Of a stretch of 64,000 bases of DNA, positions 3,001 through 23,871 are shown piece after piece. The first letter of the stretch is position 1, and the number at the start of each line of letters is the position of its first letter. This DNA comes from Salinimicrobium sp. TH3 (GTDB lineage Bacteria > Bacteroidota > Bacteroidia > Flavobacteriales > Flavobacteriaceae), in contig NZ_JAPONB010000002.1 of NCBI RefSeq assembly GCF_026676115.1, forward strand, positions 62,001 to 126,000, given 5' to 3'. Under the pieces are notes generated by a model, which saw nothing but the letters and a program-made list of their open reading frames with translations, did no database searches and was not told the DNA's origin. A program made the position numbers and the translations under genes.

Positions 3001-3273
3001 AAGTGCAACATTAAATTTTTCCAGCATCTCCTTAAGGGAAATTCCTTCCTCAAGGGCGAGATCGGTAGAGATACCGTGTACCTTTTCGGCATCGTAGGGA
3101 ATATTGAAACCATCCGGTTTCACCAGGTAATCCTGATGCTCTACCACTTGCCCCATCTCGTCATGTAACTGCCAGGCTATTTGTATACAGCGGGGCCAGT
3201 TATCGCTATCTGTGAGGGGAGCATCCCAGCGTTTGGGGAGACCGGTGGTTTCAGTATCAAAAATAAGGTACAT
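1..3273 (-). CDS. dnaE: DNA polymerase III alpha subunit with N-terminal proofreading exonuclease (3' end cut by window)
   Basis: Replicative polymerase; the reading frame is open from ATG at 3273 to the left edge, giving 1091 residues of what is usually a protein of about 1450. Residues 1-180 form a DnaQ-like 3'-5' exonuclease beginning MYLIFDTETTGLPKRW (DxE motif), followed by a charged linker. A PHP domain begins near residue 262 (HLHNHS, then LTDHANM). The family C palm has GPGRGSAAGS near 645 and the catalytic PDIDIDFDDEGR at 688-699. Proofreading fused to the polymerase replaces the separate epsilon subunit of enterobacteria. The gene stands alone with a 212-bp upstream gap. The start is fixed by homologous N-termini as I remember them. 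The C-terminal OB-fold and tau-binding region lie outside the window. Confidence 0.96.
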   Translation of the reverse strand, partial: MYLIFDTETTGLPKRWDAPLTDSDNWPRCIQIAWQLHDEMGQVVEHQDYLVKPDGFNIPYDAEKVHGISTDLALEEGISLKEMLEKFNVALSRSKFVVGQNVGFDLNIMGAEFHRLQMENKLLELPVLDTCTEVSAQLCCIPGGRGGKFKLPTLTELHEFLFHEPFAEAHNATADVEATTRCFLELIRKRVFTSEELDVKPDYFENFSEAHPQPIQLIGLKHINLKKASEEIRKRLQKKEDKGISSEEIKENLEKLDEVAFSHLHNHSQFSILQSTISIKDLVDAAAKKGMPAVALTDHANMMGAFHFVKEVGAYNKGVKTKNAAAAENNEPATARELKAIVGCEFFVCENRKDKSRKDNGYQVVFLAKNKKGYHNLAKMSSMAYTEGFYYVPRIDREVVMKYKEDIIVLTGNLYGEVPGKILNVGENQAEEALLWWKEQFGEDLYVELMRHNQEDEDRVNPVLVELAKKHDVKLVASNNTYYCEQKDANAHDILLCVKDGEKQATPIGRGRGYRYGLPNNEYYFKSGDEMKALFKDLPEAISNVQEVVDKIEPYELARDVLLPAFTIPEEFIVAEDAKDGGKRGENAYLKHITFVGAEKRYGELTPSIKERLDFELSVIENTGYPGYFLIVEDFIREARNMDVSVGPGRGSAAGSAVAYCLGITNIDPIKYDLLFERFLNPDRVSMPDIDIDFDDEGRSRVMDYVINKYGANQVAQIITYGTMAAKSSIRDTARVLDLPLNEADRISKLIPNTKLSKIFGMDEKALKSNFRSEDLDKINELLNISEGDDLEAQTVNQARILEGSVRNTGIHACGVIITPSDITNFVPVALAKDSDLYVTQFDNSVVESAGLLKMDFLGLKTLTLIKDTVKIVKGRHDIDLDPDNFPLDDEKTYELFQRGETVGIFQYESPGMQKHMKDLKPTVFDDLIAMNALYRPGPMEYIPSFIARKHGDEDIIYDLPAMEEYLKETYGITVYQEQVMLLSQKLASFTKGEADVLRKAMGKKIFSLLEELKPKFLDGGEANGHPRNVLEKVWKDWEAFASYAFNKSHSTCYAWIAYQTAYLKAHYPAEYMAAVLSNNMNDIKQVTFFM

Positions 3274-4120: not shown

Positions 4121-4166
4121 CCCCCTCATTAATAATCGGGGTCGGGAACCCCACAAATTAATTTAT

Positions 4167-12473: not shown

Positions 12474-13148
12474 CTATTTTATCCTAAACTGTATGTAAGT
12501 TATAGGTTTTCCCTGCTCAAGATACTGTTTTTCATAAAAAGTCTGTATCCCCGTAACTTCTTTTGGAGAGTATTCATTTTTATAGACGTTATGATTGGCC
12601 TGTACAACTTCATGCCCTTCTCCATGAAGGAGTCCAAGGGTATAACCATGCATAAATTCACTATCTGTTTTCAGGTTTACAAAACCATTCGGCTTTAGTA
12701 TCTTTTTGTACTTCTGAAGGAATTCCGAATTGGTCATACGGTGTTTGGTGCGTTTATATTTGATCTGTGGATCGGGGAAGGTGATCCAGATTTCATCAAC
12801 TTCATTTTCGCCAAACAATAGGTCTACCAGCTCTATTTGGGTCCTCAAAAATGCCACATTTTGGAGTCCTTCTTCCAATGCTGTTTTAGCCCCTCTCCAG
12901 AATCTGGCACCTTTAATATCTATCCCAATAAAATTTTTTTCGGGATATGCCTGGGCCAGCGCAACACTATATTCTCCTTTACCACAACCCAATTCAAGAA
13001 CAATGGGTTTGTCATTTCCAAAAAGCTTACTGCCCCATTTGTTCCTGTAACCAAAATTTCCATCTAAAACTTCCTCTCGTGTAGGTTGAACCACATTGGA
13101 AAAAGTTTCATTTTCTCTAAACCTCTTTAATTTATTCTTACTTCCCAC
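12474..13148 (-). CDS. trmB: tRNA (guanine-46-N7)-methyltransferase
   Basis: A class I SAM-dependent methyltransferase with motif I ELGCGKGEY and the TrmB hallmark TFPDPQIKYKRTKHR. The frame is open up to 13325, but the upstream part is not family-like and crosses the divergent gene. GTG at 13148 gives a 224-residue protein starting VGSKNKLKRFRENETF, matching the usual N-terminus and length. The gene leads the trmB-lysE-atl operon and is divergent from the glycosyltransferase gene. Confidence 0.93.
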   Translation of the reverse strand: MGSKNKLKRFRENETFSNVVQPTREEVLDGNFGYRNKWGSKLFGNDKPIVLELGCGKGEYSVALAQAYPEKNFIGIDIKGARFWRGAKTALEEGLQNVAFLRTQIELVDLLFGENEVDEIWITFPDPQIKYKRTKHRMTNSEFLQKYKKILKPNGFVNLKTDSEFMHGYTLGLLHGEGHEVVQANHNVYKNEYSPKEVTGIQTFYEKQYLEQGKPITYIQFRIK

Positions 13149-13215
13149 TAGAAAATTTAATATTTTGGTAAAAATAAATAAAATCCCCCACAGGCCTTTC
13201 ATATATATTTGTTTT

Positions 13216-14274
13216 ATGCGAAGTAGAAGGATTTTAGTAGCGCCAATTAACTGGGGTTTGGGGCATGCCACCCGGTGTATCCCGCTTATACAAAAGCTGG
13301 AGGAAAAGGATTTTACTCCTATCATTGCTTCAGATGGAGCAGCACTTGAACTGCTGAAAAAAGAATTTCCGCATTTAAAAGCCTTTGAATTACCTTCCTA
13401 CAATATCACCTATACGAGCAGAGGAAGTCTTTTAAAATGGAAGTTGCTACTGGATAGTCCACATATTCTGAAAAATATTAAAAAGGAAAAACGGGCTACA
13501 CAAATCCTGGTAGAGAAACTTAATCTCCATGGAATCATATCGGACAGCCGATTTGGAGTGCGATACAAACACCTGCCCAATGTTTTTATCACACATCAAC
13601 TTAATGTACTTTCGGGAAATACTACCTTTTTAAGCAGTAGGCTTCACCAGCGGTATATAAGAAAATATGATGAATGCTGGGTGCCCGATGCCCCAGGCAA
13701 GCCAAACTTAAGCGGATTTCTGGGACATCCTAGAGCACAACAGGAAGCTGTAAAATACATGGGTATTATTAGCAGGTTCGAAAAGAAGGATTTGCCACAG
13801 GTCTATGAATATATGGTCTTGCTTTCGGGACCGGAGCCACAGCGAAGCCTTTTGGAGGAAATACTATTTAAAAAATTAAAGCAAACCGATAAAAAGATCC
13901 TTTTCGTAAGGGGGGTGGTAAATAAAGATCAACCGCCTATGGCAGCACCAAATATTGTAATAAAAAATTACCTGTTTGGACAAGAACTGGAACATGCGCT
14001 AAACAGTAGTAATGTAGTGATTTCAAGATCGGGGTATACAACTTTAATGGACCTGGCAAAACTTGAAAAGCGGGCGTTTTTTATTCCGACTCCGGGACAA
14101 TTCGAGCAGAAGTACCTGGCCGATAGAATGAAAAAATTGGGATTCGCTCCTTCGTGCGAGCAGGAAGATTTTGATCTTGAGAAACTAAAAAAAGTAAAAA
14201 ATTATTCCGGATTAAGTGATCCCGGGTTTATCTGCGATTACTCTGGCCTTTTTAGCCTTTTTCAGAGTAAATGA
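13216..14274 (+). CDS. MurG-like family 28 glycosyltransferase
   Basis: A 352-residue GT-B type transferase. The N-terminus APINWGLGHATRCIPL and the C-terminal nucleotide-sugar site SRSGYTTLMDLAKL are typical of this Bacteroidota group, often annotated as UDP-GlcNAc:LPS transferase. Donor and acceptor are unknown. ATG 13216 is chosen over the 40-codon upstream extension that would overlap the trmB start region. The last 63 bp overlap the 3' end of the convergent histidine kinase gene. Confidence 0.82.
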   Translation: MRSRRILVAPINWGLGHATRCIPLIQKLEEKDFTPIIASDGAALELLKKEFPHLKAFELPSYNITYTSRGSLLKWKLLLDSPHILKNIKKEKRATQILVEKLNLHGIISDSRFGVRYKHLPNVFITHQLNVLSGNTTFLSSRLHQRYIRKYDECWVPDAPGKPNLSGFLGHPRAQQEAVKYMGIISRFEKKDLPQVYEYMVLLSGPEPQRSLLEEILFKKLKQTDKKILFVRGVVNKDQPPMAAPNIVIKNYLFGQELEHALNSSNVVISRSGYTTLMDLAKLEKRAFFIPTPGQFEQKYLADRMKKLGFAPSCEQEDFDLEKLKKVKNYSGLSDPGFICDYSGLFSLFQSK

Positions 14275-15288
14275 GAATTCACTTCCCATGCCGTAAGTGC
14301 TTTCCACAGAGATCCTTTCTTTATGCGCCTCCAACAAGTGCTTAACAATTGCGAGGCCCAGACCAGAACCGCCTTCTTTTCGGGAACCGCTCTTATCTAC
14401 CCTGTAGAACCTCTCAAAAAGCCTTGGAATATGCTCTTTTTGGATCCCCTCTCCATTATCACTAACCCTTACTATGATCTTCTTTTTTGAATGCTCTTCA
14501 ATGGCAACTTCGGTTGTGCCATCATGCTTTCCATATTTGATGGAATTCACTAAAAGATTTGTTACCACCTGCTGTATTCTTTCTTTATCGGCTTTTACCC
14601 ATACCGGCGCATAAGGAGTTTCAAATAATAAAGTGATGTTCTTTTTTGCTGCCTTCATTTCCAGGAGATCAAAAACGTTTTGGATCACCTCCACAATATC
14701 AAAAACCTCCAGATTTAACCTCAGCTCCCCTGTTTCCAGTTTAGTGATCATATCCAGATCCTGAACAATATAAACCAGCCGCTCTACTCCCTTGGCTGCC
14801 CTTGCCAAATATTGTTTACGCACTGTTTTATCTTTCATTGCACCGTCAAGGAGGGTCTCGATATAACCTTGAACCGTAAATAAAGGAGTCTTAAGTTCGT
14901 GGGAAATATTACCCATAAAATCCTTTCGGTAAGAATCCCGCACTTTAAGCGCTTCGATCTCGAGCTTCTTACCTTCAGCAAATTTTTGGACTTCTTGTGA
15001 GAGCGAGGTCATATCGGTAGTGACCTGTTCGGGATTAAGGGGAGTAGCACTCAGCATACTCACATTCTCATAGATCTTCTTGATTTTTTTGTAGATGAAG
15101 AATTCTACCCGGTATTGAATAATTAAAAATGCAAAAATGAAACAGGTAATGGCATAAATTAGAAGTGCCCATTCTGAATAAGCGTCATGAAGGACGAGAA
15201 AAACAGCTGAAATCCCGGTGAGAAAGAGAGTAACGTAAATCGAGGTCTTTACTGCAAACGTATATGATCGCTTAAAACCTTTAGCCAT
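14212..15288 (-). CDS. phoR: PhoR-like sensor histidine kinase
   Basis: A 358-residue membrane kinase. Two segments near 12-33 and 40-60 flank a very short extracytoplasmic loop, so there is no real periplasmic sensor domain. The HisKA H-box NISHELKTPLF has phospho-acceptor His130. The HATPase domain carries N-box TNLLVNSIKYG, G1 VSDNGEGI and G2 GSGLGLAIVK. It overlaps the response regulator stop (TAATG) and phoU lies 0.6 kb away, which suggests phosphate signalling. The 63-bp antisense overlap with the neighbouring glycosyltransferase is unusual. Confidence 0.78.
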   Translation of the reverse strand: MAKGFKRSYTFAVKTSIYVTLFLTGISAVFLVLHDAYSEWALLIYAITCFIFAFLIIQYRVEFFIYKKIKKIYENVSMLSATPLNPEQVTTDMTSLSQEVQKFAEGKKLEIEALKVRDSYRKDFMGNISHELKTPLFTVQGYIETLLDGAMKDKTVRKQYLARAAKGVERLVYIVQDLDMITKLETGELRLNLEVFDIVEVIQNVFDLLEMKAAKKNITLLFETPYAPVWVKADKERIQQVVTNLLVNSIKYGKHDGTTEVAIEEHSKKKIIVRVSDNGEGIQKEHIPRLFERFYRVDKSGSRKEGGSGLGLAIVKHLLEAHKERISVESTYGMGSEFSFTLKKAKKARVIADKPGIT

Positions 15289-15974
15289 TATTCCACAAAT
15301 TTGTAACCCACTCCTTTAATAGTCTTAATACTATCATCTCCTATTTTCTCCCGAAGTTTCCTAATATGTACATCAATGGTGCGTCCACCAACAACAACTT
15401 CGTTACCCCAAACCCGTTCCAGGATCTCGTCCCGTTGAAAGACCCTTCCGGGTTGGGAGGCCAAAAGATACAACAATTCAAATTCCTTGCGCGGGAGCAT
15501 AATAATTTCATCTCCCCGCGTAACCTTATACTCTTCCCTGTTAATTTCCAGGTCTCCTGCGGTAATAATTTCAGATTTTGAAGTGGAGTCTTCATTATAC
15601 CGCCTCAAAAGAGCTTTAACTTTACTTAAAAGAACTTTGGGCTTAATAGGCTTCGTAATATAATCATCTGCCCCTGCATCAAAGCCGGCCATTTGTGAAT
15701 AATCCTCACCTCTGGCTGTAAGAAAAGTGATTATAGTATTAGCCAGCTCGGGATCTTTTCTCATTTGGATACAGGTCTCCATTCCATCCATCTCGGGCAT
15801 CATGACGTCAAGAATAACTAAATGAGGTTTGTGCTTTTTGGCAGCCTTAAGAGCTTCAATTCCATTTTTGGCTGTAGTTACCTTATATCCCTCGGCAGTT
15901 AAATTATACCTTATGATCTCAATGATATCTGGTTCATCATCCACGAGTAGTATACAGATGTCTTTTTTTTTCAT
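15288..15974 (-). CDS. phoB: PhoB-like OmpR-family response regulator
   Basis: A 228-residue regulator. Receiver domain 1-125 has acidic pocket Asp12/Asp13, phospho-acceptor Asp56 (VILDVMMPEMDG) and Lys in TKPIKP. The winged-helix Trans_reg_C domain occupies about 135-228 (VWGNEVVVGGRTIDVHIRKLREKIGDD). It is coupled to the kinase by a TAATG overlap. Assignment to phosphate control is inferred from phoU and the 11-bp direct repeats nearby. Confidence 0.8.
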   Translation of the reverse strand: MKKKDICILLVDDEPDIIEIIRYNLTAEGYKVTTAKNGIEALKAAKKHKPHLVILDVMMPEMDGMETCIQMRKDPELANTIITFLTARGEDYSQMAGFDAGADDYITKPIKPKVLLSKVKALLRRYNEDSTSKSEIITAGDLEINREEYKVTRGDEIIMLPRKEFELLYLLASQPGRVFQRDEILERVWGNEVVVGGRTIDVHIRKLREKIGDDSIKTIKGVGYKFVE

Positions 15975-16051: not shown

Positions 16052-16091
16052 TAACACTAAGCTAACATTCCCTTTACATAGCTGTAATCTT
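16052..16091 (+). promoter_or_regulatory. Candidate Pho-box array upstream of the PhoB-like gene
   Basis: Four heptamers on an exact 11-bp grid: TAACACT (16052), TAACATT (16063), TTACATA (16074) and TAATCTT (16085). The 11-bp period with 4-bp spacers is that of PhoB-type operators. The repeats read on the plus strand whereas the gene 78 bp away is on the minus strand, so the orientation is opposite to that at the receptor promoter. Confidence 0.5.
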
Positions 16092-16183: not shown

Positions 16184-16216
16184 ATAAAAAAAGGTTGCCT
16201 GGCCAGGGCAACCTTT
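16184..16216 (-). terminator. Rho-independent terminator about 320 bp behind phoU
   Basis: Arms AAAGGTTGCC (16190-16199) and GGCAACCTTT (16207-16216) with a 7-nt loop; on the minus strand they are followed by a run of seven T. Confidence 0.85.
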
Positions 16217-16538
16217 CATACATCTAAATCGACAAAAACTAAGATAATATGAATTTTCTTAGTGCACATTAAGAAGTTCAAATATGAAATTTTAAAATGC
16301 ATTTAGCGTAAAGCGAAGTTTACCAAATATTTAAATTTAAAATGAAAATGTAGGAGAGGGGATATCGTGAAGGAGAGGAATTAAATCAAATTCCCTTTAG
16401 GAAAGGAATGGTAAATTTTGTGTGGTGCAATTAAAGTATAATTAAGCTTTATTCTTTGGGAAATCCTTTAAGTCTATCTTAAAAATTCTAAAGAGAAACC
16501 TTAGGAAGTAAATTAGAAGTAAATTATAAGAGAGGAGT

Positions 16539-17210
16539 TTATACCCAGGATTTCTCCTTTTGATGCTTTAGCACTTCTGCATCCCGGTAAAAAATTATCT
16601 CCTGAGCAATATTGGTTGCCAAATCTCCCACTTTTTCAAGTTTCTTAATGACTGTAAACAATAAAAGAAATTGATCTATTAGTTCCACCTTTTTTCTCAC
16701 CATTTTGCAAATAAGAGAAATGGAGTTGTTATTGATTTCATTAAGAACCTGCTCTTTTTTGAAGACCTTATGAGCTTGTTGACTATCTTCATCTGTGTAT
16801 GCCTCCTTTATATCTTCCAACATTGAAAGTGTATAGGAAAACATTTCATCCAGGCGAAGACTTTTTATTAAATCCTTTTCGGGTAGCATGTTTAACTCTA
16901 ATGTGTATTTGGATATGCCAGAAGCACAATCTCCAATGCGTTCAAGGTCAAAATTGATCTTTCGAAGAGCAAGCACAAACCTCAGATCACTCGCTACCGG
17001 TTTGTGCAAGGCAAGAAATTGTTCACAGTCCCGATCAATTTTTAGATCAAATGCGTTTACCCTGTATTCCATATGAACAACCTTTTCTGCCAAATCCTTG
17101 TCCAGCGTATGAAAAGCTTCAATCGAATTTTCAAGCTGTGTAGCACATAAATTAAACATTTCTGCACCTAACTGGTTCAGCATCTCCTTGTGTTGATCAA
17201 TATTTACCAT
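16539..17210 (-). CDS. phoU: Phosphate signalling regulator PhoU
   Basis: A 223-residue all-helical protein made of two PhoU three-helix bundles (about 8-100 and 115-205). The acidic metal-binding pattern is visible as IDRDCEQFLALHKPVASDLR near 54-73 and EKVGDLATNIAQEIIFY near 191-207. PhoU restrains the PhoR kinase when phosphate is plentiful and normally works with the PstSCAB transporter, which is not in the window. A possible half-array of Pho-box type lies 47-65 bp upstream. Confidence 0.92.
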   Translation of the reverse strand: MVNIDQHKEMLNQLGAEMFNLCATQLENSIEAFHTLDKDLAEKVVHMEYRVNAFDLKIDRDCEQFLALHKPVASDLRFVLALRKINFDLERIGDCASGISKYTLELNMLPEKDLIKSLRLDEMFSYTLSMLEDIKEAYTDEDSQQAHKVFKKEQVLNEINNNSISLICKMVRKKVELIDQFLLLFTVIKKLEKVGDLATNIAQEIIFYRDAEVLKHQKEKSWV

Positions 17211-17566: not shown

Positions 17567-17929
17567 CTATTTACTTACCACGCCTTCATCACCTTTCCAT
17601 TTATGAACTGATGCAATTCTATTATTCTCAAAATCCACCTCAGATAGCTCTTCTTCATTCCAAAAAAACCATTTCCCGGTTTTTAATCCTTCAGAATATT
17701 TACCAATAGCTTTTTTATTGCCATTTTGATCGTAGGCGACCCATTCTCCATGAAGCTCTTTATCCTTATAAAAGCCTTTTTGGGCTACCTGTCCATTTTC
17801 ATGGTAAAAGGTGGCCTCGATCAAATCTCCCTTTTGCTTGAATACTTTTTCAATGTCATTTTCCTGTGCCATTATAGCACTCCCAGATAGCATTAGGGAA
17901 CTCAACAGCAATATCTTCAACCTTTTCAT
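17567..17929 (-). CDS. Secreted YwqK-like (MORN-type repeat) protein
   Basis: A 120-residue protein with an N-terminal signal peptide (about 1-21, ending SAIMAQ). Three 22-residue MORN-like repeats of the form G-x-Y-x(n)-G-x-W follow (ATFYHENGQVAQKGFY; GEWVAYDQNGNKKAIGKY; GKWFFWNEEEL). Members are often labelled YwqK antitoxin, which does not fit an exported protein. The function is unknown. The upstream region carries two TAAC repeats 11 bp apart, so it may belong to the same regulon as phoU. Confidence 0.75.
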   Translation of the reverse strand: MKRLKILLLSSLMLSGSAIMAQENDIEKVFKQKGDLIEATFYHENGQVAQKGFYKDKELHGEWVAYDQNGNKKAIGKYSEGLKTGKWFFWNEEELSEVDFENNRIASVHKWKGDEGVVSK

Positions 17930-17992
17930 CTCATTATCTTTAAAGTCCTTTTTTAAAGATAAATAAAAATTTACATTTTAGAAACATACACG

Positions 17993-18010
17993 TAACCTTA
18001 ATTTAACATT
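17993..18010 (+). promoter_or_regulatory. Candidate Pho-box pair upstream of the YwqK-like gene
   Basis: TAACCTT (17993) and TAACATT (18004) are 11 bp apart, nearly identical to the first two repeats of the receptor array. The pair lies 64-81 bp upstream of the minus-strand gene but reads on the plus strand. Confidence 0.4.
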
Positions 18011-18738: not shown

Positions 18739-19095
18739 CTTTTTGCTGCAAAAATGAGCCTGCTTTGTTAATCATGGTCATTACTCCTATTATTTTAATA
18801 TTAAGAAATCCAGCGCTTGCCCAAAAGCAAACACTCTGAAAGGTTACCTACTAATTCCGGGCAACAAAGACTAACTATGAACACGCCTTTACGGATTTTG
18901 CCTGCACATCTTACCACTCTTTTATTTCGGCATCATTACGCTAGAAATACAAATATTTTTTCAGGAAACGGACAAATCATTGCCTAAAGAGGGGCCATAA
19001 CCTTAAGCTAACATTTATATCACACAGCATTAATTCCTACTTAACCCCAACTTTACAATAGGCTCTTTTATTTGCACCAGACAATTACAGATAAC
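18739..19095. other. 357-bp promoter region of the receptor operon
   Basis: 18739-18990 shows nothing recognisable. 18998-19059 is the six-repeat operator-like array, followed by a -7-like TTTATTTG at 19067-19074. No small ORF or hairpin stands out. Confidence 0.6.
18998..19059 (+). promoter_or_regulatory. Six-unit 11-bp direct-repeat array (Pho-box-like) at the receptor promoter
   Basis: Heptamers start exactly every 11 bp: TAACCTT (18998), TAACATT (19009), TCACACA (19020), TAATTCC (19031), TAACCCC (19042) and TTACAAT (19053). The last ends 7 bp before a -7-like TTTATTTG, where an activator would replace the -33 element. Periodicity and placement resemble PhoB-type tandem operators, and phoBR-like genes are 3-4 kb away. 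Units 3 and 4 are weak matches. Confidence 0.6.
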
Positions 19096-21891
19096 ATGAA
19101 GCGATTTTTTATCCTATTAATCGCGGTACTAATGACAAATAATGTACTGCACGCGCAAAGCGAAACAACTGGCTCTATTATGGGCCGCCTCTCAGATGCT
19201 GAAATGAATGGCGAACCATTACCATTTGCCAATGTTTTGATCAAAGGCTCCACTAAGGGAGCTACCACAGATATGGAAGGACTTTATTCCATACCAAATC
19301 TCGAACCGGGAACCTATACCCTCGCATTCAGTTTTGTAGGTTACGAAACATTAGAAATTCCTAATGTTCAGGTTTTTGCCGGCAAAATTACTGAAATTAA
19401 TACTGAATTAGGAAGCAGTGCCGCTTCCCTTGATGAAGTAGTAATATCAACTGTTTCAAGGAAAGACTCTGAAGTAGCTCTACTACTGGAGCAAAAAAGA
19501 GCTATTGATATTAAAGAAAGTATTGGAGCCCGTGAATTAGCCAAATTGGGCGTCTCTGATGCTGCCAAAGCCACTGCCCGTATTTCGGGCGTGACCAGCA
19601 GTGAAGCATCGGGTGACATTTTTGTTAGGGGATTGGGAGACCGTTATTTATATACCACTCTTAATGGACTACCTATCCCTTCAGATGATGTTGAAAGAAA
19701 GAACATAGACCTGGAACTTTTCCCTACAGGGATTATCCAAAGTGTAGCCATAAGCAAAACATATTCTCCCAACACTTCTGCCGATCAGGCTTCGGGGAAT
19801 ATTGATATCTCCACCAGGGAACTGGTAGGAACAAGTGAACTTAGCTTTGGCGCCGGTGCAGGAATTAATACAAATGTTTTGCAGGAAGGTATATTCGACA
19901 ACTTCAAGGTTTCTCCAAACCTGAAAAATGCCGATTTTGGTTTTTACACTGGAGGAAAGGCTTCAGAATACAAGCTTATCTACCAGGACTGGACTCCCGG
20001 CACTGCAGACTTACCCATGAATTACAAGTACAACCTTACTGCGGGGAAGAGATTTGGAGATAAGCTTGAGGTTTTAATCACAGGCTCTCAGGATATTGAC
20101 TATGAATATACCAAAGGAATATTTCGGGAATACCGCGCTAACTTTGTTACAGATACCATTACAGATGCTACTGTTTACTCAAAAACGATAAATACTACCG
20201 GGCTGGCAACTGTAGCTTATGAGTTTAATGCCAATAACAGCCTTAGGGCAAACAGCCTCTTTATTAATAAGCTTTCAGATAATGTTTATGAAGGAGGAAG
20301 AAACCAGGAGGGTTTTATTTTTGAAGAAACAGATCCCAATGAAGGCCTATCACAGTTTGTAAGAGACCAAAACACAAAACAGACACGTCTTTGGGTTAAC
20401 CAACTGCTCGGGGAGCACAGGCTGGGAGAGAAAAATAATCTTGACTGGGCTGCCGGTTTGAATTTGGTTAACGCCGATGAGCCTAACCGGATTAGAAATG
20501 AGGTCAACTTTAATGATGATGTAGTTTATCTTGGGGATACGGGTGGTTACCAACAGAGAAAGAGCTATCAGGAAATTGACGACTATGAATTCAATGGCAG
20601 GATCCAGGATCGTCTTGAAATACTTACTTCAGAAGAAAAGCAACTTGAATTAAGCCTTGGTGGAACCTACAGGTTCAAGGAAAGAGACTTTATATCCCGG
20701 TTTCTGGGACTCGAGGAAAGATCTAACAGGATTTTAACTCCTTCTTCCATAGACAACCTGGATGAAGTTTTCTCTCCCGAAAATTATAACAATGGAAATC
20801 TGGAGATCAATGACGACCTGCAGGCAGACAGGTACAGGGCTAACCTGGAATCTACCGCTGGGTTTGCCAGCATTACTTTTAGCCTGGAAAAGCTGAACAT
20901 TAATGCTGGAGTCCGCTACCAAAAAGATGAACTTGAGGTAGTTTACAACGTGGGAAACATTCCCGGAAGAACAGGAACATCAAACCTTGCTTACGATAAT
21001 TTTTATCCTGCTGTCAATCTGCGTTATGCTTTAACCGAAAGATCAAACTTTCGCCTTGCTGCCAGCAAAACCCTCACCTTGCCCGAATTTAAAGAAGTAG
21101 CTCCTTTTGAGTACGTTTCTCAAACCGGACAGGTGACCAGAGGAAATCCCGATCTACAGGCATCCACCAACTACAACCTTGACCTTAAGTATGAATTCTT
21201 CCCTTCTGCAGGGGAGCTATTATCCCTTACAGGATTCTATAAAAGAATTGAAGATCCAATCAACAAAGTACAGGACAGGGGCTCTGCAGGCGTCTTCTCA
21301 TATTTCAACGCTGGAGAAAAGGCAGAGATCTATGGTTTGGAACTGGAAACCCGCCTGGAGCTAATAAGAATGGAAGACGGTGCGGCCTATGACTTTAATC
21401 TTGGTTTTAATGCCTCCAGAATGTGGCACTCCCAGGACCTTAAGGAGTTAAGAAATGAGAACGGACAGTTGTTGCGCACTTTTAGATATAAAGGTTTAAC
21501 TGGAACAGGTTTACAAGGTGCATCGGACTGGATCTTTAACGGTTCTCTTAATCTGGTTGTTGGCAATGAAAACCCTTTTATGGGGAGTTTAGTTGCAAAT
21601 TATGCATCAGACAAGATCTATGCACTTGGCGCCCCTGAAAGACAAACTGAAAGTGAAACTTTTTACAACGATGCCATTATTGAAAAAGGTTTCATAAGCC
21701 TTGATGCCGTTCTAAGTCAGGATCTTGGGGATTACTGGGGCATAAAATTTACCGGAAAGAATCTTCTAAACCCTACTGTAGAAAGAGTGCAGGATGTTAA
21801 GCCTTCTACCACAGGAATAGAAACTACCGAAACCGTAAGATCCTATACCCGCGGGGCAGTATTGTCACTGGGAATCAACTACAACTTCTAA
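19096..21891 (+). CDS. TonB-dependent receptor with carboxypeptidase-regulatory-like N-domain
   Basis: A 931-residue outer-membrane receptor starting at ATG 19096 (MKRFFILLIAVLMTNNVLHAQ, a signal peptide). A CarboxypepD_reg-like domain follows at about 24-105 (PLPFANVLIKGSTKGATTDMEG). Then come a TonB-box-like segment DEVVIST, the plug (GDIFVRGLGDRYLYTTLNG) and a 22-strand barrel ending in the aromatic NYNF. There is no SusD partner; instead a beta-helix lipoprotein gene follows after 42 bp. The ligand is unknown. The 11-bp repeat array in the promoter and nearby phoBR/phoU suggest phosphate-limited expression. Confidence 0.92.
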   Translation: MKRFFILLIAVLMTNNVLHAQSETTGSIMGRLSDAEMNGEPLPFANVLIKGSTKGATTDMEGLYSIPNLEPGTYTLAFSFVGYETLEIPNVQVFAGKITEINTELGSSAASLDEVVISTVSRKDSEVALLLEQKRAIDIKESIGARELAKLGVSDAAKATARISGVTSSEASGDIFVRGLGDRYLYTTLNGLPIPSDDVERKNIDLELFPTGIIQSVAISKTYSPNTSADQASGNIDISTRELVGTSELSFGAGAGINTNVLQEGIFDNFKVSPNLKNADFGFYTGGKASEYKLIYQDWTPGTADLPMNYKYNLTAGKRFGDKLEVLITGSQDIDYEYTKGIFREYRANFVTDTITDATVYSKTINTTGLATVAYEFNANNSLRANSLFINKLSDNVYEGGRNQEGFIFEETDPNEGLSQFVRDQNTKQTRLWVNQLLGEHRLGEKNNLDWAAGLNLVNADEPNRIRNEVNFNDDVVYLGDTGGYQQRKSYQEIDDYEFNGRIQDRLEILTSEEKQLELSLGGTYRFKERDFISRFLGLEERSNRILTPSSIDNLDEVFSPENYNNGNLEINDDLQADRYRANLESTAGFASITFSLEKLNINAGVRYQKDELEVVYNVGNIPGRTGTSNLAYDNFYPAVNLRYALTERSNFRLAASKTLTLPEFKEVAPFEYVSQTGQVTRGNPDLQASTNYNLDLKYEFFPSAGELLSLTGFYKRIEDPINKVQDRGSAGVFSYFNAGEKAEIYGLELETRLELIRMEDGAAYDFNLGFNASRMWHSQDLKELRNENGQLLRTFRYKGLTGTGLQGASDWIFNGSLNLVVGNENPFMGSLVANYASDKIYALGAPERQTESETFYNDAIIEKGFISLDAVLSQDLGDYWGIKFTGKNLLNPTVERVQDVKPSTTGIETTETVRSYTRGAVLSLGINYNF

Positions 21892-21933: not shown

Positions 21934-23871
21934 ATGAAAAAAATGACCAAAAACTTAGCTGTACTTTTCTTACTATTAAGCGGCTTTATATTCACAGGCT
22001 GTAGTGAGGATGAAGATCCAATCATCGATAAACCACAAGTAGAAAACGATGAACTCAATGGAGAACTAAATGAAGACTTAACTCTTGATCCATCTATAGA
22101 ATATAAATTAACAGGATCTTTTGAAGTCCTGGCAGGTAGCACTTTAACTATACCGGCAGGAACTAAAATTGTTGCCGAAAAAGGCACAGAAAATTATATT
22201 GCCATCCATCAAGGTGCCGACATAGTAATTACCGGAACCCAAAGCAATCCTGTGATCATGACTTCTGTCAATGGCGCTCCCGGAGACTGGGGAGGTTTAG
22301 TGATTCTTGGAAACGGGGTTACTACCGAAGGTGTTGATGTAACTGCCGAAGTAGGCGGATTCAAATATGGAGGTACAGACAACACCGATAATTCCGGAAC
22401 CATTGAATATCTTGTAATTGAAGGAGCAGGTGCTCAGATCAATGCCGATTCTCAATACAATGGCTTAAGCCTGTATGCAGTTGGTAGCGGAACTACAATT
22501 AGAAATATTGCAATCCTTAACGGAGCAGATGACGGAGTGGAATTCTTTGGAGGTGCTGTATCTGCAACCGAATTGTATCTTGAGAACAACGAAGATGACT
22601 CTGTTGACTGGACCGAAGGTTGGAATGGTACAATAACAAACGTGTATGTGCTTCACACCATAGAAGGTTTCTCTACAGCCATTGAAGCCGATGGGGTAAA
22701 TAACAATCCAAAAATCATCAATTTCACCGCTGTTTCTACAATTGGAGGAACTGCTCTGCAGTTTAAGAAAGAATCGGGTGCCACTTTTGAAGGTCTTTCT
22801 TTAAGCGGTTACGATACTTCTGTAGAAATGAGAGACAACGGTCCTGTAGCAAATGTTGTAATTGAAAATAATGTAGCGAATCCTGAAGCGAACTATACGG
22901 TTCCAGCAACCGTTAATGCAAATGCTTTCACCTGGATCAATAACAGAGGTAGCGTAGCTTCCAATATTCTTCAGGGTACCGTAGAAGGAACAGTGACTCT
23001 TGATCCTACAACCACCTACAACCTTAACTCTTCTTATATTGTTCAGGATGGAGGTAAACTCATTATTCCGGCAGGAACAAAGATCATTGCCAGAGACGGT
23101 GGCACAGATGTTTATATCGCTGTACTTAAAGGCGGAATGATCGATATACAGGGAACTGAAACCAACCCTGTGGTGATCTCTTCTGCAGAAGGTAATCCCG
23201 GAGATTGGGGCGGACTAACAATTGTGGGTGATGCGACTACTACCGAAGGTGTTGATGCGGTAGCCGAAGTTGGCGGATTTGTTTACGGAGGTAACAATGA
23301 TGAAGATAACTCCGGAAGCATTAAATACCTTGTGATCTCCGGAACGGGAGCTCAAATCAATTCTGAATCTCAGTACAATGGAATTTCATTCTATGCTGTT
23401 GGATCTGGAACTACTGTAGAAAATGTTGCTGTACTTAGTGGAGCTGATGATGGAGTAGAATTCTTTGGAGGAACTGTATCTGCATCCAATCTTTACCTTG
23501 AAAACCTGGAAGATGATGCTGTAGACTGGACAGAAGGCTGGAATGGAACTGTGACCAATGTTTACGTGAACCACACTATAGATAATTTCTCCACTGCAGT
23601 TGAGGCCGACGGTGCTAACGCAAATCCGAAGTTGATCAACTTCACCGCAGTTTCTACAACCGGCGGTACCGCACTACAGTTCAAGAAAGAATCTGGTGCA
23701 ACCATTTCAAATCTTTACCTTGAAGGTTATGAAACCAACGTTGACATGAGAGATGGCGGCGCACTTACTAATGTGCAAATCGATGGCGCAGGTGCAGCTG
23801 TAGATGCTGCTTATGACCTGGGAACAAAGGTCGATGTTTCAACCTGGAGCTGGATAGAAGCAGAACTGTAG
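21934..23871 (+). CDS. Beta-helix surface lipoprotein with internal duplication
   Basis: A 645-residue lipoprotein; lipobox FTGC places the lipidated Cys at residue 23, followed by an acidic linker. Two roughly 300-residue copies (about 43-342 and 347-645) share many identical stretches, for example PAGTKI, ADDGVEFFGG, VDWTEGWNGT and ALQFKKESGAT. Each copy looks like a right-handed parallel beta-helix of short hydrophobic strands and Gly/Asn turns. No catalytic site is recognised. The gene is co-transcribed with the TonB receptor and ends at a terminator, so it may be its cell-surface substrate-binding partner. Confidence 0.85.
   Translation: MKKMTKNLAVLFLLLSGFIFTGCSEDEDPIIDKPQVENDELNGELNEDLTLDPSIEYKLTGSFEVLAGSTLTIPAGTKIVAEKGTENYIAIHQGADIVITGTQSNPVIMTSVNGAPGDWGGLVILGNGVTTEGVDVTAEVGGFKYGGTDNTDNSGTIEYLVIEGAGAQINADSQYNGLSLYAVGSGTTIRNIAILNGADDGVEFFGGAVSATELYLENNEDDSVDWTEGWNGTITNVYVLHTIEGFSTAIEADGVNNNPKIINFTAVSTIGGTALQFKKESGATFEGLSLSGYDTSVEMRDNGPVANVVIENNVANPEANYTVPATVNANAFTWINNRGSVASNILQGTVEGTVTLDPTTTYNLNSSYIVQDGGKLIIPAGTKIIARDGGTDVYIAVLKGGMIDIQGTETNPVVISSAEGNPGDWGGLTIVGDATTTEGVDAVAEVGGFVYGGNNDEDNSGSIKYLVISGTGAQINSESQYNGISFYAVGSGTTVENVAVLSGADDGVEFFGGTVSASNLYLENLEDDAVDWTEGWNGTVTNVYVNHTIDNFSTAVEADGANANPKLINFTAVSTTGGTALQFKKESGATISNLYLEGYETNVDMRDGGALTNVQIDGAGAAVDAAYDLGTKVDVSTWSWIEAEL

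Follow-up and report, generated by a model that had tools for sequence, protein, structure and literature searches.

The window, that is, the whole 64,000-nucleotide stretch of Salinimicrobium sp. TH3 DNA analysed here, contains in order the genes of a GT28 glycosyltransferase, PhoR, PhoB, PhoU, a MORN-repeat protein, MarC, a TonB receptor and a 645-aa predicted lipoprotein. The glycosyltransferase gene (PF04101, by Pfam) occupies positions 13096-14274 on the + strand, and the - strand carries a PhoR-type histidine kinase (14212-15288), a PhoB-type response regulator (15288-15974), which is the inferred binder of the array described below, and PhoU (16539-17210), the three being recognised with Pfam and NCBIfam, as well as the MORN-repeat protein (17567-17929, Pfam), a probable further target. 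The TonB-dependent receptor (19096-21891, +; Pfam and NCBIfam) has a CarboxypepD_reg-like N-terminal domain, and its orthologs have the array upstream. The lipoprotein gene (21934-23871, +), the product of which matched no Pfam family above cut-off, has a relative in 77 of the 80 receptor loci of the named set (kept out of 589 in the species collection), and is the positional counterpart of the phosphate-induced F. johnsoniae lipoprotein FII. Pfam placed the PhoB-, PhoR- and PhoU-type genes where the earlier note, made from the letters of this DNA, had read them. With NCBIfam, the equivalog cut-off was reached for PhoU (157 vs 130 bits), and scores were below cut-off for PhoB (218 of 270 bits, 215 of 296 bits) and for the kinase (PhoR 244 of 334 bits, PnpS 258 of 400 bits); that a PhoB/PhoR pair is encoded in the genome is read from Pfam domains, best-hit names and linkage. 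PhoU, which the earlier note had named among the genes within 5 kb, is together with MarC a local neighbour, since the two were next door in none of the 80 related stretches, and it stands outside the conserved combination of array and receptor. Elsewhere in the window, an S16-Flavobacteria ribosomal protein leader (Rfam RF03138) was observed at 4128-4162 (+).

The promoter of the receptor contains six direct repeats on an 11-bp grid (18998-19063, +), beginning where the earlier note had set them: TAACCTT at 18998, TAACATT at 19009, TCACACA at 19020, TAATTCC at 19031, TAACCCC at 19042 and TTACAAT at 19053. Scored against TAACnTT, in which six positions count, units 1 to 6 reach 6, 6, 3, 3, 4 and 4 of 6. 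They are followed by the -7-like element TTTATTTG (19067-19074, +), TAnnTTTG being the -7 consensus, and its TTTG (19071-19074) stands 18 bp past the start of unit 6. The ATG of the receptor follows at 19096, and the TTG at 19072 falls within the promoter. No six-unit score of 26 arose when the window was simulated 60 times, on one strand, with a first-order Markov model, nor did any of 5000 simulated 216-bp upstream regions reach it, 0.04% of which held a perfect pair; chance is thus an unlikely source of the array. In the real window this score was reached at three starts, all on the + strand, namely 18998, 17949 and 17960, the last two belonging to one array upstream of the MORN gene. Moreover, an exact search of the 3.69-Mb genome for TAACnTTnnnnTAACATT gave three matches, in the receptor array, at window position 17993 and in the OprP-pst promoter, and none for the reverse of this pattern. 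When up to two mismatches were allowed, the genome gave 616 matches as against 943 for the reversed control, so that predicting a regulon by mismatch pattern was dropped in favour of profiles. The two-unit consensus with which the earlier note proposed to scan the genome is too loose once mismatches are allowed.

The conservation of the array was followed in a family set of 60 genomes, 31 with a receptor match and 30 with loci, and in the named set, the only anchor of the rows being the TTTG that lies close to the start of the receptor. In 26 of the 30 family loci, all but L040, L060, L061 and L062, a pair with a score of 8 of 12 or more stood at exactly -73/-62 from TTTG. Among the named loci TTTG was in range in 75 of 80, and the pair was at -73 in 58 of these 75; of the orthologs without it there, 4 in the family set and 17 in the named set, some have a shifted or variant array, e.g. 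Aquimarina. The repeats, whose conservation the earlier note had made decisive, are thus kept in exact register upstream of orthologous receptors. Over the 26 family rows, which were picked by units 1-2, the means of units 4, 5 and 6 were 4.4, 4.6 and 3.8 of 6, unit 3 being the weakest at 3.2, and the period-11 power of the same selection was reached by none of 20000 column shuffles. The most informative column of units 1, 2, 5 and 6 is a C (1.4-2.0 bits). Two further upstream units were seen by eye in many named loci, giving up to eight. A PWM from 41 named rows gave, at 16 bits or more, 93 matches in the 80 named loci and at least one in 73 of them, training rows included in both counts, while the reversed PWM and three column-shuffled ones gave none in the 80 loci; it also matched 25 of the 30 family loci, a set which shares some species with the named one. 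Row set A2 comprised 41 of 45 non-redundant rows (the window, L106, L108 and L169 omitted), and row set A3 20 of 21 (own copy omitted).

Two side observations were made at these loci. The Aquimarina loci (L126 2093, L182 2237 and similar ones) have apparent tandem receptor copies, the first with the standard array and the second with a divergent but conserved promoter (CACAATCCCTTAAACTAA...). There are also short predicted secreted proteins which resemble only the N-terminal domain of the receptor, each with a match to the array profile upstream (L071 4161-4517; promoters L146 11197, L166 11070, L139 11924 and L115 13054).

The same box is found before the pst genes, in the own genome and in relatives. 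In the own OprP-pstSCAB promoter, TAACATTaaatTAACATT, TTTG is located 18 bp past the start of the second unit; among the 30 family OprP loci a pair of at least 9 of 12 lies at -29/-18 in 22 and at -40/-29 in 5 more, L088, L091 and L093 having it in neither position. The two units of the pst promoter and the six of the receptor therefore share one common register to TTTG.

Upstream of phoB, 78 bp from its start, there is an array at 16052-16091 (+) that points away from the gene, with units TAACACT (16052), TAACATT (16063), TTACATA (16074) and TAATCTT (16085). The idea that it is a rightward promoter was dropped, since its TTTG is one off register and it lies where, in relatives, the array shared by phoB and the receptor has the edge nearer to phoB. 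A phoB match was present in 29 named loci, 24 of them with the -73 array, and from unit 1 to the phoB match (the start of the tblastn match) there were 74-128 bp (median 82) in 23 of the 24, with L158 not adjacent. Likewise, a pair of at least 10 of 12 was located 69-87 bp upstream of phoB in 10 of 11 same-genus loci, and was kept in 4 of the 5 that have no receptor within 1.5 kb. In both groups the orientation of the boxes is away from phoB. Their spacing to the -7 element varies at phoB, and no register is claimed there.

The array upstream of the MORN gene (17971-18010, +; units at 17971, 17982, 17993 and 18004) is reverse-oriented relative to that gene. All 38 MORN relatives with enough sequence (of 40) had upstream a pair that points away from the gene and scores 10 of 12 or more; in 37 of them its distance from the inferred start was 56-85 bp. 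The direction towards MORN also reached 10 of 12 in 25 of the 38; as the away-pointing score was higher in 36 and equal in 2, with both directions often scoring high, the orientation rests on a modest difference. In these 38 upstream regions TTTG in the forward register was absent save in L167, and TAnnTTTG occurred on the MORN coding strand in 18. For the reversed unit on that strand, the five best of 72 offsets were -42, -53, -20, -9 and -31, which form one exact 11-bp grid from TTTG, the -9 unit being favoured by its overlap with the TAnnTTTG anchor. The box may, as judged from these positions, work in two orientations.

Profile searches extended these results to whole genomes. When the complete own genome was searched with R1, a sequence-only profile built from 41 promoters of other species with the window omitted, the window array came out on top (52.4 bits, E 2.1e-13), with the OprP-pst promoter second (28.8 bits, E 4.6e-6); the phoB-upstream array came third (17.3 bits, E 0.018) and the MORN array fifth (14.5 bits, E 0.14), each of these two being weak by itself. 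The earlier note had asked whether matches precede pst or phoU genes. One does precede OprP-pstSCAB, and the gap before phoU had neither an R1 match (E <= 10) nor a pattern match with up to one mismatch. The fourth place in the R1 ranking (C17:234215-234256, -; locus L187; 15.1 bits) lies before a gene for a 378-aa membrane protein, which was considered as a PiT transporter and left uncounted, PF01384 being found only at E 0.34, far under cut-off. R2, a profile from the OprP-pst promoters of relatives, scored the own pst promoter highest (32.8 bits), with the MORN box in third place (16.4 bits, E 0.036) and the receptor in fourth (13.9 bits, E 0.21).

At class level, R1 gave matches at E <= 0.001 in 28 of 149 genomes, the own genome counted, with 30 places outside it, of which 28 were inspected and 2 were left without inspection. 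At 25 of the 28 the match precedes a gene of interest: 14 before TonB receptors with tblastn similarity to that of the window, 6 before relatives of the 645-aa lipoprotein linked to it, 3 before OprP-type porins, and 1 each before a PiT and a Na/Pi cotransporter gene. The other three had no such gene (L248 overlaps a reading frame, and no Pfam family was found at L251 and L258). A divergent phoB lay within 1.5 kb at 7 of the 28 places. Since TonB receptors are a large family, numerous in these bacteria, the class-level enrichment may in part be weaker than it appears, and the number of receptors carries no more of the argument than do the transporter, porin and phoB cases. The receptor promoter was the best R1 match in each of three Flavobacterium genomes (E 8e-12, 1.6e-10 and 1.1e-4). 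Lower matches (E 0.005 to 1) included the linked lipoprotein (L199) and OprP (L200); many of those inspected lay inside a gene or upstream of one without relation to phosphate uptake, and the further R1 matches in the three genomes showed no recognisable known phosphatase gene.

A response to phosphate has been published for the corresponding genes of F. johnsoniae. Upon Pi depletion, the transcriptome fold changes were 8.0 for the receptor Fjoh_0545, which is listed in a 'PhoBR operon', 9.9 for the lipoprotein Fjoh_0546, 5.4 for the glycosyltransferase Fjoh_0541 and 3.1 for PhoB, while OprP (Fjoh_0542) was uninduced (-1.3, not significant) (PMC8115612). The domain of the window glycosyltransferase, PF04101, is also that given for the induced Fjoh_0541 (PMC8115612). 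In F. pectinovorum (L180), the glycosyltransferase, PhoR, PhoB, receptor and lipoprotein follow one another in that order together with the array, and an R1 match (16.9 bits, E 0.03) was found before an OprP gene between the glycosyltransferase and phoR, the positional counterpart of which in F. johnsoniae is the uninduced Fjoh_0542. Phosphate control of the receptor is thus supported, by analogy, by the published expression in a relative. Furthermore, the PhoB of B. fragilis binds the pstC promoter in vitro (PMC3547664). A partial survey of the literature (PMC8115612, PMC8812569, PMC4415409, PMC3547664) yielded no Bacteroidota PHO-box sequence.

Taken as a regulatory site, the array is very probably a docking site of PhoB at an outer-membrane uptake gene, and its placement and conservation support its description as a Bacteroidota type of PHO operator that is long and fixed in position. 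We hold it to be highly probable that the six repeats are a PHO operator through which PhoB would switch on the TonB receptor and the lipoprotein. The features of a PHO box found here are the 11-bp period, with seven conserved and four loose bases, and the fixed placement to the core promoter (+18 to TTTG). The E. coli heptamer CTGTCAT is not matched, TAACATT standing in its place, which is not treated as defining, since the PHO-box consensus is said to vary with the species (PMC4415409). As to the number of units, the earlier view that such arrays usually have two to four is corrected by the multi-unit complex operators reported for Streptomyces (PMC4415409). The lack of induction of the OprP counterpart Fjoh_0542 slightly lowers our confidence.

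Under phosphate starvation, PhoR would phosphorylate PhoB (15288-15974), which would then bind head-to-tail with one protomer per 11-bp unit, giving about three dimers over 66 bp on one helix face. The perfect distal pair (units 1-2) would nucleate binding, an order that we infer, and the weaker units 3-6 would be filled cooperatively afterwards. The last protomer, at its fixed distance from the TTTG of the -7 element, would recruit RNA polymerase, and this would switch on the receptor and the lipoprotein. The oprP-pst promoter would be the minimal form, with one strong pair in the last two positions. As the receptor has a long array with a distal strong pair in place of that minimal pair, such arrays probably set a threshold different from that of the pst promoter.

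Two other explanations of the array have to be weighed against this. The repeats could be bound by another OmpR-family regulator that reads 11-bp repeats, the proximity of phoBR being incidental; such regulators generally bind tandem repeats, and the genome does encode two other proteins matching PhoB at E <= 1e-30 (37% and 34% identical). This is nevertheless improbable, because, of the 24 named loci having both, 23 have the array next to phoB, 10 of the 11 same-genus phoB genes have a pair 69-87 bp upstream, the box precedes OprP-pst and, in other families, PiT and Na/Pi transporter genes, and the syntenic receptor and lipoprotein of F. johnsoniae are induced by Pi depletion (PMC8115612). 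Hardly credible is the view that the array is no operator but intrinsically A/T-rich DNA of the promoter, the 11-bp phasing serving only to bend the helix: the motif is indeed A/T-rich and helically phased, yet the most informative column is a C (1.4-2.0 bits) and not an A-tract, and reversed and column-shuffled profiles find nothing. A PHO operator read by PhoB remains the preferred reading of the six repeats.

A further element, a candidate small RNA of about 90-110 nt, is located between phoU and phoB (16186-16278, -), where the core CTTAGTTTTTGTCGA is followed by an intrinsic terminator. Its inferred promoter (16279-16322, -) has weak units at 16322, 16311 and 16300, which are, counted by hand, in the 18+11n register to the TTTG at 16282-16279. 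A copy of this stretch with 84% identity stands immediately before the own OprP-pst promoter; the two copies of the candidate, in the window and at L063 5470-5566 (-), have a core complementary to the oprP-pst leader. At the family OprP loci GTTTTTGTC, mostly within TTAGTTTTTGTCGACTA, is in the same place in 25 of 30, in the order GTTTTTGTC, intrinsic terminator, pst box. It is absent from L080, L088, L091, L100 and L103, of which L088 is found by R3, a small-RNA model built without own-genome sequence. Row set A4 comprised 22 of 25 rows (the own copy, L075 and L076 omitted). In the terminator stem, 6 of 8 pairs have rows changed on both sides.

In the own genome, R3 gave two matches at E <= 0.01, the window copy (44.6 bits) and the pst copy (36.4 bits), and it matched all 20 named loci in which the porin was found (E 1.2e-21 to 1.3e-4), at least one of which, L166, is a training genome. 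In 198 class genomes there were six weak matches besides the two own copies (34.7-38.9 bits, E 0.0007-0.005), regarded as chance since none is near relatives of the tested genes, and there was no match in the five other same-family genomes of the class sample. The own pst copy scores no better than these six, and it is accepted on account of its location and of being 84% identical to the window copy. A 5' hairpin from the palindrome TGTCTTAAGACA, seen by eye in many rows, is not claimed, as RNAalifold did not give it and the window copy folds otherwise. In the window and the own pst region, no family of Rfam 15 scored up to its gathering threshold on the candidate, FopS having 17.8 of 56 bits and tsr26 24.6 of 141. 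As a side observation, L268, the only one of eleven same-genus genomes to lack a box at phoB, has the small-RNA element upstream of phoU and phoB (3030-3127, -).

Between the core and the leader of the OprP mRNA, GCGACAAAAACTAATA, there is complementarity: in 45 rows the mean pairing was 14.6 of 16, compared with 12.5 for shuffled and 12.8 for reversed cores, and the Watson-Crick mean was 13.96 with own partners, a value reached by none of 5000 partner swaps, vs 13.25 with swapped ones; these statistics ignore relatedness and count one genome at least twice. Compensatory changes were found in L076, L092/L160 and L095, and poor pairing in L114 and L163. At the small-RNA promoters of 23 of 25 loci (two without TTTG omitted), the units score best at -40 and -29, the ranking of offsets being 40; 29 = 34; 51; 57; 45; 23; 50; 18. 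Offsets 40, 29, 51 and 18 are on the receptor register, and 34, 45, 57 and 23 make up a second comb, attributed without proof to the TTAATAATTACTTAATATT run.

From its sequence, the candidate looks able to pair with the phosphate-uptake mRNA; that it is transcribed, pairs and represses is what we infer. Otherwise, the complementary segments could be two oppositely oriented DNA sites recognised by a single protein. In favour of this, the two are strongly conserved and each follows promoter-like sequence, and their covariation could track a drift in the specificity of that protein; in addition, the consensus core can fold into a small hairpin, and in the fold of the window copy some of the core is paired with sequence upstream of it. 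Against this, the upstream copy stands just before an intrinsic terminator with a covarying stem, and several rows stay paired only with the help of G-U (paired 15-16, Watson-Crick 13-14). Two such DNA sites are therefore judged rather unlikely, though far from negligible, and a pairing RNA is preferred.

These elements suggest, tentatively and with slightly less than even confidence, an 11-bp code in both directions together with a PhoB-driven small RNA that would restrain oprP-pst. Forward arrays of two to eight units would drive OprP-pst, the TonB receptor and the small RNA, a reverse-oriented 11-bp grid (-53, -42, -31, -20 and -9 from TTTG, on the coding strand) would drive the MORN gene, and the box facing away would also serve phoB. 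The small RNA, made under PhoB, would pair with the leader, rich in A, at the 5' end of the oprP-pst message. PhoB would in this way both turn on phosphate uptake and make the RNA restraining it, an incoherent feed-forward loop. This reading is weakened by the two-way scores at MORN and by the unproven 5' hairpin. The small RNA and the reverse-oriented arrays, both hypotheses backed by comparison among relatives, would be its more novel parts.

If the analysis is correct, the phosphate response of Bacteroidota gains an operator signature and its register, where the partly surveyed literature gave expression data or a bound fragment, and with this signature phosphate-controlled genes, orphan TonB systems included, could be predicted from sequence. 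It raises the question of why one promoter should have six to eight mostly weak units and pst two. It also offers a candidate phosphate small RNA with a named target, outside the families of Rfam 15 at gathering score.

Among known systems, the Bacteroidetes FopS and other Rfam small RNAs are short RNAs like the candidate, which differs from them in scoring below every gathering score. The phoBR-linked, TonB/SusCD-like PUS of F. johnsoniae (Fjoh_0545/0546) has the same set of neighbours, i.e. glycosyltransferase, PhoR, PhoB, TonB receptor and lipoprotein, and its description concerns expression, the terms 'pho box', 'motif' and 'promoter' occurring 0 times in the main text (PMC8115612). With PhoB-pstC of B. 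fragilis the shared feature is a Bacteroidota PhoB at a pst promoter, shown there with a 512-bp fragment in a paper whose main text does not contain the word 'consensus' (PMC3547664). The complex PhoP operators of Streptomyces coelicolor resemble the array in that the number and conservation of units vary within an operator, but their units are GTTCACC, and no fixed family-wide six-unit template is described in the part of that source consulted (PMC4415409). Finally, the array is like the E. coli PHO box in its 11-bp repeats of seven conserved and four loose bases, its occurrence before pst and its position beside the core promoter, and unlike it in the heptamer, TAACATT as against CTGTCAT (PMC4415409), in having six units (by eye up to eight in relatives), and in its register fixed to TTTG, with reverse-oriented versions at MORN and phoB.
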